A DNA stretch of 20,257 nucleotides from a virus, in IMG/VR virus record IMGVR_UViG_3300025162_000204, positions 1-20,257 of that record; one strand, written 5' to 3'. The translations under genes were made by a program, and so were the position numbers. This document shows, one piece after another, positions 4,053 through 18,868 of this stretch (its first letter is position 1; the number at the start of each line of letters is the position of its first letter). Below the pieces are notes generated by a model. It saw nothing but the letters and a program-made list of their open reading frames with translations, did not search any database and was not told where the DNA came from.

Positions 4053-4808
4053 CTATGAAATTCTCAAGCTAACTGGACCATATTGTCCGTTTACACCTGT
4101 TTTCAAGTTGTAAGCGATGTCCATCAAAGTAGCTGCTGTGACCTGAAGTGCACCTGCAGTTCCTGAGTTGGGACCTGACAAACCTGTACCAATAGCTGGT
4201 GTACCTGCGATCAAAGCATTTGCAATACCTTTGACTTGTAACCAACCATAATAAGTAGCCGCCAAGTTATTTACTGCAACTCCTACAATCTTTCCTGTGA
4301 TTGTGCTTGGAGCTTGTATAACTGCAGAACATGTTGGTGGAATTATTGTTACTGTGGCTGAAGTTGTAACAGCTGCCATTGCATCTTCAAGTTTCAATGT
4401 TATTGATGTACCTGAAGCTGTAACTGCTGTGTTTGATGAAATCTTTGAAATCTGACCTCCTCCATTAGCAACTGTTCCATACGTAGTATAGAAACCTCCT
4501 GCTAACTGATTTGCTACGATAGCTGTACCTGTTGAAATCGTAAGAGTTGTTGTCAAAGCACCAGCTGCGATTGCAACTGCTGTGACATCGGTCAAATTTG
4601 CTGAGATAGCTGCATCTTGCTGTAGTTGACCTACAATCAAAGGTGAAGCTCCTGCTGAAGCAAATCTAAACTCTCTTCCGTCTCCTGTTGTGGCTCTTAC
4701 GCCCAAGTCAGGAACTTGTGTCATGTAAGGAACTGCGGCTGATGTTGGTGCTACCTGCACTAACAAGTCGGCTCCATTTACGATAACATCTGGTCTAAGT
4801 GATGACAT
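4053..4808 (-). CDS. Probable capsid decoration or structural protein
   Basis: 251 residues, rich in Ala, Thr, Gly and Val, with no cysteine clusters or catalytic motifs. Around residues 44-63 it has DGREFRFASAGASPLIVGQL, and around residues 186-202 VNNLAATYYGWLQVKG. Both blocks, flanking a beta-rich middle with repeated TTTLTIST/TSITLKLED-type strands, recall a family of phage structural proteins coded close to the major capsid gene. The ATG at 4808 follows a TTAATTAATTAATTC leader with no Shine-Dalgarno. It is separated from the beta-helix gene by 26 bp and followed by two hairpins. Inference: an abundant head-surface protein. A second capsid-lattice component or tail role cannot be excluded. 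Confidence 0.65.
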   Translation of the reverse strand: MSSLRPDVIVNGADLLVQVAPTSAAVPYMTQVPDLGVRATTGDGREFRFASAGASPLIVGQLQQDAAISANLTDVTAVAIAAGALTTTLTISTGTAIVANQLAGGFYTTYGTVANGGGQISKISSNTAVTASGTSITLKLEDAMAAVTTSATVTIIPPTCSAVIQAPSTITGKIVGVAVNNLAATYYGWLQVKGIANALIAGTPAIGTGLSGPNSGTAGALQVTAATLMDIAYNLKTGVNGQYGPVSLRIS

Positions 4809-11130: not shown

Positions 11131-11466
11131 TTAGTTTATGTGTGACCATCTATAACCATTAATAATATCGGAGACATGAGATTGGTCTATCCCAAATATT
11201 TCTCCTACCTTTTTTTGTGACATATTTTTGACTAATTGTTTAATTTTTATAACACTTTCTGTTGTTAACTTATGTATATGAACTCTTATTTGTTTTCTTT
11301 TACCACTATCATTATAAACAAAAACATCTAAATAATTTCTTGGTGGGTTTTTTGCTTTCCTCTGAATTATAAACTTATTCCAAAAGCAACTCCAAATCTT
11401 ACCACTTCTAGTAGCTTTGTAGTTTGAAAATCCGGGAATAGTTTTTAATTCTTCTTGTAAAGCCAT
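11131..11466 (-). CDS. NUMOD4/helix-turn-helix protein lacking the HNH core
   Basis: 111 residues. The start (TIPGFSNYKATRSGKIWS, about 8-25) is the NUMOD4 motif found at the N-terminus of HNH homing endonucleases, continuing with YLDVFVYNDSGKRKQIRVH. In intact relatives an HNH core follows ('NHIDGNK-x-NN-x-x-NLEW'). Here the sequence passes directly to a helix-turn-helix, KIKQLVKNMSQKKVGEIFGI followed by SHVSDIINGYRW (about 74-107), as in the C-terminal DNA-binding part of such enzymes. No His/Asn catalytic set is visible, so it is probably a DNA-binding remnant or a repurposed regulator. It sits 1 bp upstream of the portal gene, and both proteins start with MALQ. Confidence 0.75.
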   Translation of the reverse strand: MALQEELKTIPGFSNYKATRSGKIWSCFWNKFIIQRKAKNPPRNYLDVFVYNDSGKRKQIRVHIHKLTTESVIKIKQLVKNMSQKKVGEIFGIDQSHVSDIINGYRWSHIN

Positions 11467-11725: not shown

Positions 11726-11851
11726 TTAGCGCACACTAGTAATTACATTAATTTTACACTGAACTCCATAAGAATCAATTGGGATTAGACAACCACCTGT
11801 GAATTTATGTGTACTACAGATGTTTTCTGTACCACAGTTGAGTTCCTCTTT
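11726..11851 (-). pseudogene. Orphan Cys-rich open frame without a start (possible gene remnant)
   Basis: Between the DnaA/HNH gene and the next small gene a frame of 41 sense codons runs to a TAA at 11726-11728. Its translation looks protein-like: ELNCGTENICSTH, then TGGCLIPIDSYGVQCKINV, ending TSVR, with four cysteines. No ATG, GTG or TTG lies in frame after the preceding TAA at 11852-11854, and several further stops separate it from the upstream gene. It may be the C-terminal remnant of a small gene broken by the upstream insertion, or chance. Confidence 0.3.
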
Positions 11852-11907
11852 TTATGAATATCTATATTATTATTAGTACTGTGGACAACTGGTTCTACTG
11901 TGGATAT
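11832..11907. repeat. DnaA-box-like and inverted repeats at the 3' end of the DnaA/HNH gene
   Basis: On the minus strand, two 9-mers within one base of the DnaA box TTATCCACA overlap the end of the HNH gene: ATATCCACA (11899-11907) and TTGTCCACA (11880-11888). Both lie within a direct repeat of TCCACAGTA. Downstream, an ACTGTGG copy whose plus-strand form is CCACAGT (11832-11838) forms a 7-bp inverted repeat with 11878-11884. Their orientation is opposite to the boxes upstream of the gene, so the gene is bracketed by inward-facing boxes. Confidence 0.45.
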
Positions 11908-12376
11908 CTTTAATAGAAAGCATACCTTTATCCGCAAGTGCATGATGATTTGGACATAATAATACAAGATTTTCTTCATCATCTGTTCCTCCATTACAAC
12001 GTTGCAATATATGATGAACTTCAACTATTTCATCAAAACCACAGACAACACACTTACCATTAAATTTCCCTTGTAAATATCCATATCTGCCTGATAATTT
12101 AATTTTAATGACCTTTTTTTCATCAGTTTTTTCATAGTTTTTATTCATTATACCTTTAATCCACTCGGTTTCTTTGAATTTTTTATAAAGATGAATAGCA
12201 GTTGAATGGTCTTTTTTCAATTCTCTTCCAATCGCACTATAACTAAAATTATAATGTTTAGCTAAACATACAAATAAAGCCCTAGCTTTTACAAGTGAAT
12301 CAAATCTTCTTTTTGACAACAGTTGCCCCTTATCAACTCCCATTTCTAACTTAACAATTTCATATATTTTATCCAT
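11873..12376 (-). CDS. DnaA domain IV-like/HNH endonuclease fusion
   Basis: 167 residues. Residues about 3-68 align by eye with the DNA-binding domain IV of the replication initiator DnaA: QLLSKRR (18-24) matches DLLSKRR of E. coli DnaA, CLAKHYNFSYSAIG (37-50) matches the next helices, and KKDHSTAIHLYKKF (54-67) matches the signature GRDHTTVLHACRKI. The residues that contact the DnaA box in DnaA (the basic-loop Arg and the Asp-His-Thr/Ser-Thr set at 56-59) are kept. There is no AAA+ domain. Residues 107-150 form an HNH nuclease: Cys109-x-x-Cys112, VEVHHI (His121-122), Asn136, and CPNHH (141-145). Activity is inferred: a nuclease addressed to DnaA-box DNA. The upstream gap carries DnaA-box-like 9-mers. 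DnaA-C-like domains also occur in some transposases, so a general HTH role is the alternative. Confidence 0.8.
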   Translation of the reverse strand: MDKIYEIVKLEMGVDKGQLLSKRRFDSLVKARALFVCLAKHYNFSYSAIGRELKKDHSTAIHLYKKFKETEWIKGIMNKNYEKTDEKKVIKIKLSGRYGYLQGKFNGKCVVCGFDEIVEVHHILQRCNGGTDDEENLVLLCPNHHALADKGMLSIKDIHSRTSCPQY

Positions 12377-12406
12377 AATTTTTATTGATTAAACTTTTAT
12401 ACACAT

Positions 12407-12435
12407 ATAATAACATTTGTGCATAAAATAATCAA
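12407..12435 (-). promoter_or_regulatory. Candidate sigma70-type promoter for the DnaA/HNH gene
   Basis: On the minus strand, TTGATT (12430-12435) and TATTAT (12407-12412) are separated by exactly 17 bp. The -10 differs from TATAAT at one position and the -35 from TTGACA at two. Transcription would begin near 12400, some 25 nt before the ATG at 12376. The -35 overlaps one DnaA-box-like 9-mer (12429-12437) and lies next to another (12441-12449), which suggests autoregulation. If the host is Bacteroidota its own promoter consensus would differ. Confidence 0.4.
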
Positions 12436-12566
12436 CTTAATTATCAACATTTCTTTGTAAAACTGTTAACTATAATATGGGTATATTAGTTATCAACTTA
12501 TTGTCAACAGTTTGAAAACTCAATTATCGACATCTTATCCTACTATTTCACCCTTACTTATCCACA
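12429..12566 (+). repeat. Cluster of DnaA-box-like 9-mers
   Basis: The 197-bp gap 12377-12573 holds a row of same-strand 9-mers related to the DnaA box TTATCCACA: TAATCAACT (12429), TTATCAACA (12441), TTATCAACT (12490), TTGTCAACA (12501), TTATCGACA (12524), TTATCCTAC (12535) and a perfect TTATCCACA (12558). Three of them are within one base of consensus. The surrounding DNA is AT-rich. This arrangement is what a replication origin or DnaA-regulated promoter looks like, and it lies directly upstream of the gene for a protein with a DnaA-type DNA-binding domain. Confidence 0.6.
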
Positions 12567-12573
12567 ACTAAAA

Positions 12574-14127
12574 TCAATAAAACTTCGGCAAAAACGCTGA
12601 TCCATCGGGCAATGCCTCATACCCAATAGAACCCCACTTCGACACTGGATCCGAGAACGATGCCTGTGAATCCATAAACCTAGACATTCCTATTCTCCAA
12701 TACACAGTCGCCTGAACCCAATCATCACGATCCGAGCGCATCCACGTGAATTTAGTCATACCTGTGTTCTCGTTGTAGTCCTCTACACGATACACGTGTG
12801 ACCAGTGAATCCAATAATCCCACCACTCCGAATCAGTACCATAAATGGGTATGCGTTTTTCTGTGAACTCATCAACAACCAATTGAATACACTTGTTCCT
12901 ATCTGCCTGAACTGTTCCCTTATCATCATCCCAACTGATAAGCTCGTCGTTCTTTTTATCCTGTCTATAAAAACACAAGAATACTCTGTTGGGGTATTTT
13001 TCACGTAGCTTACGAGGTCCAATTATATCTCCACCTTGGTCGATGACCATGATCGCATCACTCCAACGATTGAGTAGTTTCTCAAGCTCCGAGTAATCCT
13101 TACACTCTCCGAAATAGAATAGTCCATATTTATTACCAATCGTGTATCTGATATCCACACCTGTATCGACTCCGATGATAGGTCTGCAATCCTGTGGGTT
13201 AACTCTCTGCGTAAGGTTCTGAAATAACAACGGCTGTGATAACACGTTACCTTTACCAACGTAAGGTACTCCAAGCACGAAATTACAGAACTGCTCATCT
13301 GTATAACTCTTTTTACGATCAAGAACTGCCTGAGCTGATACCCAAGGACACATCAACAGCGATATCTGATACCCTGACACCTTTTTATCTGCCCAACGCT
13401 GAACCCAGCGCCCTTCCCTGCGATTGAGCTCTTTCTTACACTTGGTACACCCAAAATAAGCCGGGGTGCCCATTATGTTCTCCATTGTGAGATACCAATC
13501 ATGACCACAGAACTCGCACTCCACGAACCAATACTTCTGATCCGACTGCTCCCAATACTTATCCACGCCAACCCCAGGCGCACTTGGGTTACTGAAATAC
13601 CAACGCCATCCGAATTTAGAGTGCTGCAACCTAGTTTCAAACTGTGTGACTACATCTTGCTTTGACCTGTCCACCTCATCACCAATGTAAATATCTGCTG
13701 GAATAGACAACGCTGATCGTTCTGTCCACGTACCTCTGAAATATATAATGTGATTACCTAGTTTTTTCTGCTCGATAGAATCAATGTCGTTAGTCCATTC
13801 CTTAAAAATAGGATTAGCATTTATCAATCGATTAGTTTTACCACCAACGAAATCGTGTACATCGGACATCGCAGGTAGAGAGTAAATGATATCTGTACCC
13901 AAATTCTTTGCTACCCACATCATCTTTATATTCGCCAACGTTGACATACCAACCTGTGCTGCCTTTCTTATCGCCTGAACTGGTGTCATATCCCAAAATA
14001 TATCCCACAAAAAAGGATGATCTGTGAAATCAAGTTTTGTACCCTGATCGTTTGTAATGTTATACAACTCTAAAAAGCAGTGTATATCACGACTCGCTAA
14101 CTGTTCCTTTGTTGGTATTACCACCAT
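12574..14127 (-). CDS. Terminase large subunit (GpA-like)
   Basis: 517 residues. It powers DNA packaging and cuts the concatemer. The ATPase half has the variant Walker A RKAAQVGMST (54-63; lambda GpA-type enzymes have KAAQVG-x-S/T here), Walker B IYIGDE (146-151) followed by VDRSKQD, and the coupling-motif-like WRWYFSNPSAPG (175-185). A zinc ribbon follows: CEFC (204-207) and CTKC (227-230), as in the GpA family. The nuclease domain begins at PIIGVDTGVD (Asp321, Asp325), with a second acidic strand AIMVIDQGGD. The family often reaches 600 or more residues, so this is a compact version. The ATG at 14127 overlaps the small-subunit gene by 41 bp. After its TGA comes the DnaA-box cluster. Confidence 0.88.
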   Translation of the reverse strand: MVVIPTKEQLASRDIHCFLELYNITNDQGTKLDFTDHPFLWDIFWDMTPVQAIRKAAQVGMSTLANIKMMWVAKNLGTDIIYSLPAMSDVHDFVGGKTNRLINANPIFKEWTNDIDSIEQKKLGNHIIYFRGTWTERSALSIPADIYIGDEVDRSKQDVVTQFETRLQHSKFGWRWYFSNPSAPGVGVDKYWEQSDQKYWFVECEFCGHDWYLTMENIMGTPAYFGCTKCKKELNRREGRWVQRWADKKVSGYQISLLMCPWVSAQAVLDRKKSYTDEQFCNFVLGVPYVGKGNVLSQPLLFQNLTQRVNPQDCRPIIGVDTGVDIRYTIGNKYGLFYFGECKDYSELEKLLNRWSDAIMVIDQGGDIIGPRKLREKYPNRVFLCFYRQDKKNDELISWDDDKGTVQADRNKCIQLVVDEFTEKRIPIYGTDSEWWDYWIHWSHVYRVEDYNENTGMTKFTWMRSDRDDWVQATVYWRIGMSRFMDSQASFSDPVSKWGSIGYEALPDGSAFLPKFY

Positions 14128-16382: not shown

Positions 16383-16587
16383 TTGTTTTGAAATTGATAT
16401 TAATATTTGCTATCTCTTTACTTGGTTTCCAATCGACATCCTTTACTTTACATAATATTACTAAACCATCACTGCCATCAGGGAACTCAAAAGGAAACGA
16501 CACGATCCTTGCTTTTGATATTGGATCAACTGTGACCTTTGCATAAGGTCCAATCTCTGTATAAAACTGATTAATTTTTTGTATCAT
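16357..16587 (-). CDS. Unknown protein between groEL and groES
   Basis: 76 residues, unrecognised. It contains QFYTEIGPYAKVTVDPISKA, then RIVSFPFEFPDGSDGLVIL and KVKDVDWKP, a mostly beta pattern, and an Asn/Lys-rich end (INFKTNENQTDRK). It overlaps the groEL end by 17 bp and the groES start by 26 bp, so it is translated from the same message. Position suggests a chaperonin-linked role, but no motif supports any particular one. Confidence 0.6.
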   Translation of the reverse strand: MIQKINQFYTEIGPYAKVTVDPISKARIVSFPFEFPDGSDGLVILCKVKDVDWKPSKEIANININFKTNENQTDRK

Positions 16588-18094
16588 TTTTTAATTCTTC
16601 GCATATACTTACACTGCCTGTTATAAACTGGGCTGCATTTGCAATAGAGTTCTCTACTACACATCTCTCGACCTTTGCTGGATCAATAATACCTGCCTTG
16701 ATAAGATCCCCAACTGAATCATTCTTTGCATCGTAACCCATATCTCCATGCAAGTAATACGATACCTCTGCATAATCTTTACCAGCATTCTCACAAATCT
16801 GTTTCAACGGAGCTTTTAATGCCTCCTTTACAATGATCTCCCCTACGGTCTTTGCTTTCATATCCTGTGCTATTCTCCATAAACACATCCCTCCACCTTC
16901 CACTACGCCCTCCTGTAGTGCGACCTTTGAAGCTTTGATAGCGTCATCTGCTTTATCTTTTAGATACTCTCTCTCGAAGTCCTGACCTGCGATTTTCAAC
17001 ACTGCGATTTGACCTCGCAACTGTGATACACGTTTCTCTAACCTCTCTTTGATATACATATTCTGTTCCTCTCTTACGAACTTCTCAAGAAAATCTGCTC
17101 TCTGTTGTGCTGACTTATTATCAACAGGAATGAACAGCGTTTTATTAGCATCGCTGACTATCTTTTTTACTTTACCCAAATACTTATCTGCCTCTGACAT
17201 CATTTGAAATGTGATACCTGTTTCCTCTGAAACCCGGGTAGCGCCTACAACTGACTCGATATCCTTTAATAAGTCCCCTGATGCCTTTATAACAACAGGG
17301 TTAAACCTACCCAAACCCTTATTCATAACTAATAGACCTAACACTGCGTTCTCGATATCCTCACAAACGATAACGCACGATGTGATCCCATTTGCATCGA
17401 AGTAACCAAACAAAGGTGAAATGTCCTGCAACGCTGTTATCTTTTTATCAGTAACAAACACTGGAACGTTAGTCATAACGCACTGTGCCTTTGTCTTTTG
17501 ATTTATAAATGCTGGTGACATAAACCCAACCGAAGTATCATAACCCTCGATAATCTCGTAATCTGTTTTTGCTGAATCGTAACAATCCTCAACAGTGATC
17601 ACTGCATCGTTACCCAACTTATTTATAATCTCGCTGATTTTAGTAGCCAATACCTCGTCCTCACTTGATATGAGTGCTATCTTTTTAATATCCTCTGTCG
17701 CAATTTTGACTGATCGCTTTTTAATCTCTGCCACGATCTTGGGTGACACTTTGAGTAATGACTCCCTGATCGCCATAGGATTTTCTGGTCGTTTCATTGC
17801 CTCATGAACCACTGCCTGTAAGAACACAGCAGTCGTGGTCGTTCCATCCCCGGCATCATCAACTGTTTGACCGAGAGTATTTCTAGCAACCTTTGCTCCT
17901 GAATTTTCAAGTGGATCCTTTAATTCGATGACCTTTGCGATGTTAAACCCATCGTTCGTGAACTTGGGCTGCACTGCATCATCTACCCAAACATTCCTGC
18001 CCTTAGGTCCTAAAGTACCCTTTACGGCATCACATACGACATCCAAACCCCTTAACATACTCTCACGTGGATTAAAATTGACTGACTTACTCAT
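16571..18094 (-). CDS. groEL: GroEL-like chaperonin
   Basis: 507 residues against about 548 in E. coli GroEL. It keeps the ATP-site motifs TLGPKGRN (27-34), TNDGFNIAK (46-54, with Asp48), DDAGDGTTTTAV (79-90) and GVVEGGGMC (396-404), and an Asp at 384 matching the catalytic Asp398 of E. coli. The apical part is divergent: the usual PGFGDRRK segment is replaced by a shorter ASGDLLKDIE (about six residues fewer), and the C-terminal Gly-Gly-Met tail is absent. Phage GroELs, where studied, help fold phage proteins and may work with their own GroES. It starts 8 bp inside the previous gene's end. The changed substrate/GroES-binding face suggests a specialised client such as the capsid protein. Confidence 0.9.
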   Translation of the reverse strand: MSKSVNFNPRESMLRGLDVVCDAVKGTLGPKGRNVWVDDAVQPKFTNDGFNIAKVIELKDPLENSGAKVARNTLGQTVDDAGDGTTTTAVFLQAVVHEAMKRPENPMAIRESLLKVSPKIVAEIKKRSVKIATEDIKKIALISSEDEVLATKISEIINKLGNDAVITVEDCYDSAKTDYEIIEGYDTSVGFMSPAFINQKTKAQCVMTNVPVFVTDKKITALQDISPLFGYFDANGITSCVIVCEDIENAVLGLLVMNKGLGRFNPVVIKASGDLLKDIESVVGATRVSEETGITFQMMSEADKYLGKVKKIVSDANKTLFIPVDNKSAQQRADFLEKFVREEQNMYIKERLEKRVSQLRGQIAVLKIAGQDFEREYLKDKADDAIKASKVALQEGVVEGGGMCLWRIAQDMKAKTVGEIIVKEALKAPLKQICENAGKDYAEVSYYLHGDMGYDAKNDSVGDLIKAGIIDPAKVERCVVENSIANAAQFITGSVSICEELKNDTKN

Positions 18095-18264: not shown

Positions 18265-18498
18265 TTAATAATTTTGTATCTTTTCTTTTACTTTTGTAAA
18301 TGGTCTAAAATGCAATTTGTTATGTGACTGCGTAACGATCTCCTTACCTGAAAAATTGTGATAGAACTTGCGAGGTTTAATTCTCTTTATACTGAATACA
18401 CCAAGTTGTGAAACTCTTATCTTTCCTTTGAATTGCAACCCTGCGTAAATAGTCGCCACATCATCTCTATCCAATTGTACTGTCTTCGGGATTTTCAT
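18265..18498 (-). CDS. HU/IHF-like DNA-binding protein (short form)
   Basis: 77 residues. Residues about 28-75 resemble the arm half of HU/IHF proteins: KGKIRVSQLGVFSIKRIK corresponds to 'G-x-V-x-L-x-GFG-x-F-x-V-x-x-R', then PRKFYHNFSGKEI corresponds to the DNA-inserting arm (RNPxTGKEI in HU), and KLHFRPFTKVKEKI to the end helix. HU has about 45 residues before this part, this protein only about 27, so the dimerising helices are largely missing. HU-type proteins bend DNA. It lies between an HNH gene (32 bp overlap) and the 58-residue gene. Assignment is by eye and uncertain. Confidence 0.5.
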   Translation of the reverse strand: MKIPKTVQLDRDDVATIYAGLQFKGKIRVSQLGVFSIKRIKPRKFYHNFSGKEIVTQSHNKLHFRPFTKVKEKIQNY

Positions 18499-18868
18499 TT
18501 TGTAATCTTATTAAAATCTGTTCGTAATACTGTCTGTTAACTTTATTATATGCTCGACTCTTAATTTTCAACTGATTGAACCAATCCATACCTTTTGCTG
18601 CTAAAATCAAATTGTTATTCGTAGGATCAGGTGACTGATGCAACCTGCAATGCTCCTCTGTCGTAAGTGGTACTAAATTGTCCCAATCATATCTCAACAC
18701 CGAACTGACTGACTTTGGAATGTAGTGATGCATCACATCGGTAGGTAGTCCTGAAATAATTGATCGTGGGAATTTTACCTTGCCAACCCTCTGCATCTCA
18801 GCATCACACTTTTTTCTCATCACTGACAACGGTGTCTTGGACACTCTGTGGAACGGGGTTTTTTTCAT
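18467..18868 (-). CDS. HNH nuclease-like protein (NinG-style)
   Basis: 133 residues. The core DVMHHYIPKSVSSVLRYDWDN (44-64), then LVPLTTEEHCRLHQSPDP, reads as an HNH nuclease: His47-His48, Asn64, His73 and His77. The spacing 'HH-x-(10-12)-RYDW-x-N-x-x-x-L' is like NinG-type and other small phage HNH proteins. There is no CxxC zinc pair before it. The C-terminal part is helical (IKSRAYNKVNRQYYEQILIRL). The ATG at 18868 lies inside the upstream small gene (65-bp overlap). It could resolve recombination intermediates or cut host DNA. Position in the accessory block does not decide. Confidence 0.7.
   Translation of the reverse strand: MKKTPFHRVSKTPLSVMRKKCDAEMQRVGKVKFPRSIISGLPTDVMHHYIPKSVSSVLRYDWDNLVPLTTEEHCRLHQSPDPTNNNLILAAKGMDWFNQLKIKSRAYNKVNRQYYEQILIRLQNENPEDSTIG

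Follow-up and report, generated by a model that had tools for sequence, protein, structure and literature searches.

A row of DnaA-box-like 9-mers precedes a phage gene in which a DnaA-type DNA-binding domain is joined to an HNH nuclease domain, and an earlier note on this locus offered three purposes for the row: an operator of the gene, an origin of replication, or a decoy for host DnaA. The question of which applies was addressed across the whole stretch of DNA (the window), a 20,257-bp virus record that is probably a fragment and whose main genes are all on the minus strand. Shine-Dalgarno motifs were almost absent from gene starts across the window, where an A/T-rich stretch precedes the ATG, and their scarcity suggests a host among the Bacteroidota; assignment of a host from named relatives failed, the closest named terminase large subunits (TerL) being <30% identical. 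The window also carries two more HNH genes (1286-1912 and 18467-18868) and a GroEL-like chaperonin gene (16571-18094) followed by small genes, for which the best phage-record matches (Bacteroides phages included) were ~33% identical, with Flavobacterium, Cellulophaga and Vibrio phages matching too.

DnaA boxes between the TerL gene and the fusion gene

All 9-mers of the gap were scored by mismatch count against TTATCCACA, and candidate sigma-70-like promoters were called by consensus match, giving the following features.

12377-12573, no strand assigned: box array, the gap between TerL and the DnaA/HNH gene (197 bp, 77% AT), with 7 DnaA-box-like 9-mers
12558-12566, plus: perfect DnaA box TTATCCACA, at the same position in the sister phage L006 (973-981)
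12524-12532, plus: box TTATCGACA, 1 mismatch; the L006 counterpart (1006-1014) is a perfect TTATCCACA
12501-12509, plus: box TTGTCAACA, 2 mismatches, with TTGACA within it on the minus strand
12490-12498, plus: box TTATCAACT, 2 mismatches, overlapping a candidate -35 element
12441-12449, plus: box TTATCAACA, 1 mismatch
12418-12426, minus (opposite orientation): box TTATGCACA, 1 mismatch, in the spacer of the candidate promoter at 12407-12435
12397-12405, plus: box TTATACACA, 1 mismatch
12469-12496, minus: candidate promoter TTGATA-16-TATAGT, 10/12, consensus match only
12407-12435, minus: candidate promoter TTGATT-17-TATTAT, with TG preceding the -10, consensus match only

The gap thus holds 7 boxes at ≤2 mismatches, 5 at ≤1 and 1 perfect, six of them on the plus strand and one on the minus; TTATCCATA at 12369 was left out of the count, being created by the start codon. 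The earlier note had placed seven same-strand 9-mers, one perfect and two within one base, in untranslated DNA at 12429-12566, just upstream of the minus-strand DnaA/HNH gene. Mismatch counting confirmed the perfect box and the two 1-mismatch boxes (12558-12566, 12441-12449 and 12524-12532, all plus), and the untranslated position held as well. The row stood and its count did not: five 9-mers at ≤2 mismatches lie in that interval, and seven are reached only over the whole gap, which adds 12397 (plus) and 12418 (minus), with six on one strand.

Dinucleotide shuffles of the gap gave expectations of 0.12 (≤1 mismatch) and 1.29 (≤2 mismatches), against 5 and 7 observed (p ≤ 3e-4), and the remaining gaps of the window held ≤1 box each at ≤1 mismatch. 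When ~500 permutations of the consensus were run over the gaps of the window and L006, 9 matches were reached by TTATCCACA alone. A motif-free search of the same two gaps returned TTATCCAC as the top repeated 8-mer (14 copies at ≤1 mismatch), a repetition equalled by 0 of 200 shuffles; since a blind 9-mer search of the window gap alone was not significant (p 0.17), this blind support needs the L006 gap. The DnaA-box row in the gap is real. Three further ≤1-mismatch boxes were seen in the 3' end of the fusion gene, within 11880-11936 (11880, minus; 11899, minus; 11928, plus; 0.02 expected), and were not found in the L006 allele.

Boxes cover or overlap candidate promoters of the fusion gene, which were called by consensus in AT-rich DNA (12 versus 6 expected). 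The box at 12490-12498 overlaps TTGATA at 12496-12491, the candidate -35 of a promoter defined by consensus only.

The fusion protein

11873-12376, minus: DnaA domain IV/HNH endonuclease fusion, 167 aa (PF08299, residues 2-66; PF13391/PF01844, residues 109-155)

DnaA domain IV and HNH were both found by Pfam, NCBIfam, PDB sequence and fold matches. PF08299 (Bac_DnaA_C) matched at 53 bits (cut-off 31.5; 41.4 bits for the L006 allele in the genome search), PF13391 and PF01844 were above cut-off, and the PDB sequence search matched the box-bound domain IV of E. coli DnaA (1j1v). An AAA+ ATPase domain was absent, the 167-aa protein consisting of domain IV and HNH only. The AlphaFold model was of low-to-moderate confidence (mean pLDDT 68, N-terminal part 80-91), and its fold matches were best for DnaA-DBD/box complexes and otherwise for HNH nucleases, with weak E-values.

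DnaA contacts bases through R399, P423, D433, H434, T435 and H439 (PMC5043019, PMC7561715). Alignment to 1j1v showed that R399 (R24), D433 (D56), H434 (H57) and H439 (H62) are retained in both the window and L006 alleles and that T435 and P423 are both Ser in both, leaving 4 of the 6 base-contact residues identical. The two DnaA domains are 35% identical and these four residues are nonetheless kept; on the nuclease side, HH121-122, N136, H144-145 and the cysteine pairs are invariant across both alleles.

Relatives of the locus

12574-14127, minus: TerL, left neighbour, whose stop codon is the cassette left border
11776-11788, minus: cassette right border CTAATCCCAATTG, where identity with L006 resumes; L003 has ATTATCCCAATTG right after the TerL stop

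Comparison with the sister L006 (IMGVR_UViG_3300022555_001155) gave 100% identity up to the TerL stop, ~50% over array and gene, and ~100% again from CTAATCCCAATTG. At the cassette position L006 has a diverged DnaA_C/HNH fusion gene, 44% identical to the window gene, and a gap with its own box row (2 perfect boxes, 4 at ≤1 mismatch versus 0.15 expected). Between the window and L006 the two TerL-proximal boxes align; past the first ~60 bp the positions differ and both gaps are still enriched, a pattern such as box turnover under selection would leave. L003 (TerL 81% identity) has neither fusion gene nor array, its portal gene beginning 249 bp after TerL with no HNH gene between. The block diverging from L006 is exactly array plus gene, and L003 is the empty site of an optional insertion between conserved genes. 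As L006 has its own gene and row and L003 has neither, array and gene behave as one exchangeable cassette and, judging from these alignments, are gained, lost and exchanged together; across the phage group the fusion gene appears dispensable.

Among the other TerL relatives examined, the fusion was present in none and at most one ≤1-mismatch box occurred in the 250 bp after TerL; none of the other virus records searched had PF08299, and tblastn with either fusion protein against the TerL loci gave no match except L006. A wider search (viral-contig and genome-contig scans, phage and plasmid tblastn) returned the fusion in the window and L006 only, its other matches being zinc-finger HNH proteins, ordinary DnaA and unrelated proteins. 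With the fusion in only two phages, the co-variation consists of one presence/absence contrast and one allele pair. Relatives keeping the gene and lacking the boxes, the case named earlier as speaking against a link between the two, were looked for and none occurred. A box row beside a DnaA_C gene was absent from three Pelagibacter phages, C72C1, Microcystis phage Mae-JY35 and three faecal contigs, so a DnaA_C gene alone is no predictor of an array.

Several further observations were made at this spot. The ~85 bp 3' of the fusion gene occur in the window alone. A TATCCC(C/A)-like element lies directly 3' of the TerL stop in many relatives (L003, L009, L013, L081, L087-L090, L135, L139, L142 and L154), is an exact TTATCCACA or TTATCCACT in some of them, and has its window counterpart at 11776-11785; the cassette insertion point is exactly on the TerL side of this element. 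At the L003 empty site, TTATCCCAA differs from the box TTATCCACA at 2 positions; this likeness fits homing weakly, because many relatives have a TATCCC-like element after TerL. A second insertion relative to L006, at the portal gene start (11131-11466), encodes a 111-aa protein that matches the HNH endonuclease profile phrog_59 and a helix-turn-helix with no HNH domain match, and resembles what remains of a homing endonuclease, or the DNA-binding half of one. In L089, a close relative of the gene-less L090, the TerL-portal interval (4481-4651) contains a by-eye HNH end-piece resembling the C-terminus of the 1286-1912 product. This end-piece suggests that the TerL-portal spot is a repeated landing place.

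Readings of the array

Since row and gene co-occur and co-change in relatives, a control switch for the gene itself is the most likely purpose of the row, ahead of a replication origin. We put at about one half the probability that the array serves the adjacent gene as its operator inside a free-standing homing-type HNH cassette. Of the three purposes first offered, autorepression through an operator is the best supported, by the boxes over candidate promoters, by array and gene co-varying, and by the kept box-reading residues. Against it stand the Ser at the P423 contact position and the occurrence of the fusion in only two phages. Array and gene would form a single mobile cassette between TerL and the next small gene, and the gene would make a small HNH endonuclease with DnaA domain IV as its reader of DNA. 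By binding to its own boxes, the fusion protein would cover the promoter and keep its own expression low; the same reading head may also steer the HNH domain to DnaA-box-like targets elsewhere, allowing the cassette to spread by homing. The array, the domain make-up, the reading residues, the array-gene co-variation and the cassette borders were computed directly; binding, repression, cleavage and homing by the fusion protein are what we infer.

I-TevI, which binds to an operator that overlies its own promoter and looks like its homing site (PMC2988022), offers a precedent. The present locus may share with it binding sites over the gene's own promoter and a likeness of target and operator (L003 TTATCCCAA versus TTATCCACA, only suggestive); I-TevI differs in being GIY-YIG and intron-encoded and in using a single long operator, versus the row of 9-mers here. 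With the free-standing HNH homing genes of T4-like phages (mob) the locus shares a small optional HNH gene between conserved genes and the joining of HNH to a separate DNA-binding part (PMC2988022); unlike them, the fusion has an N-terminal DnaA domain IV as binder and a matched site array before the gene, and its homing is only proposed. Domain IV reading residues and a box cluster beside the reader's gene are shared with DnaA, its autoregulated dnaA promoter and oriC, whereas the fusion has an HNH nuclease attached and lacks an AAA+ domain, helicase loading and a dnaN/oriC context. GafA, of the RcGTA gene transfer agent, likewise re-uses a DnaA-type DNA-binding domain as a phage-type regulator outside replication (PMC9638019), but has a sigma-factor-like C-terminal domain, no HNH, and Glu at the DnaA R399 position. 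Each ingredient was known separately: homing genes of the HNH type, operators made of DnaA boxes and, in phage-derived systems, DnaA-like regulators such as GafA (PMC9638019). The papers searched, covering part of the literature, describe no fusion of DnaA domain IV with HNH, and none accompanied by a matched array that is exchanged along with it.

The strongest rival to the operator reading is that host DnaA reads the array, so that a DnaA-controlled promoter would make expression of the phage HNH gene follow the level of DnaA or the state of replication in the host; this is possible, though we hold it to be clearly the less probable of the two, and we are equally tentative about its corollary that the protein's own DnaA domain has another purpose or shares the sites. 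The array boxes fit the general bacterial consensus, similar clusters occur at bacterial dnaA loci (L075, L163), and one unrelated phage contig has a comparable row before an HNH gene.

L066, 4560-5177: zinc-finger HNH gene with a box row, near a terminase gene

The L066 gene lacks a DnaA domain, and its 4 same-orientation ≤1-mismatch boxes (0.13 expected) surround a perfect TTGACA-17-TATAAT promoter, so host DnaA may be what reads the array in the window. However, L066 is a single case from loci fetched by HNH similarity, such a row was present at only 1 of the 43 other phage HNH genes examined, and in the window's phage group there is no array where there is no fusion gene. A common 9-mer target is to be expected for fusion protein and host DnaA, and sequence therefore cannot tell them apart. 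L075 (MT837747.1), filed as Bacteriophage sp., was rejected as a phage with a large box cluster, being a bacterial dnaA locus (rnpA-like gene, dnaA, dnaN), and was kept as a positive control.

In our estimate it is unlikely that the fusion targets DnaA-box clusters of the host, namely oriC, as a phage nuclease that would cut or nick the origin and halt host replication while the array restrains its expression. A slightly lower rating goes to a packaging role, in which an HrdP/HK97 gp74-type HNH protein would help to cut packaging sites and the array would mark or adjoin the cut site. The TerL-HNH-portal order is the same as that of skunavirus HrdP (PMC12724721), an HNH gene between TerL and portal being common to the packaging proteins HK97 gp74, GVE2 and HrdP, and the L066 gene is likewise close to a terminase gene. 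HrdP is nevertheless in all skunaviruses, whereas L003 has no HNH gene and the other relatives examined have no fusion there; unlike these packaging proteins, the fusion is not conserved in its phage group, it has a DnaA domain and a box array, and its allele is hyper-variable between TerL and portal genes that are not.

That the array is a phage replication origin, opened by host DnaA or nicked by the fusion protein, is improbable. It is a box row in AT-rich DNA, and the same count gives bacterial oriC regions similar scores, but GC skew is negative on either side with no sign change, the neighbours are packaging and structural genes, and relatives do without the array altogether; as the window is a fragment, a replication module may lie elsewhere. 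The unchanged skew sign and the lack of an array in gene-less relatives also argue against a decoy.

Titration of DnaA by box clusters is an established form of control in bacteria. It is a subject of PMC12371093. A decoy of this kind is still less probable here than an origin, given the few strong boxes (1 perfect in the window, 2 in L006) and the relatives that lack gene and array alike. Least credible of all is that the array is a by-product of AT-rich promoter sequence with TTGATA/TTGACA -35-like repeats: TGTTGATAA includes the -35-like hexamer TTGATA, so the 9-mer repetition could partly be -35-like sequence, but shuffles that keep dinucleotides and permuted consensus 9-mers fail to reproduce the array, perfect TGTGGATAA copies are not -35 elements, and the other gaps of the window are almost without boxes.

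A nuclease equipped with the DNA reader of the replication initiator, and with a matching array of sites for it, would illustrate on a small scale the passage of a DNA-binding domain from the control of replication to a mobile phage gene. Site, reader and cutter lie within 700 bp, and two diverged alleles and an empty site make the proposal readily testable. Should the protein read host DnaA boxes too, it may be a weapon against the host origin, or a competitor of DnaA.
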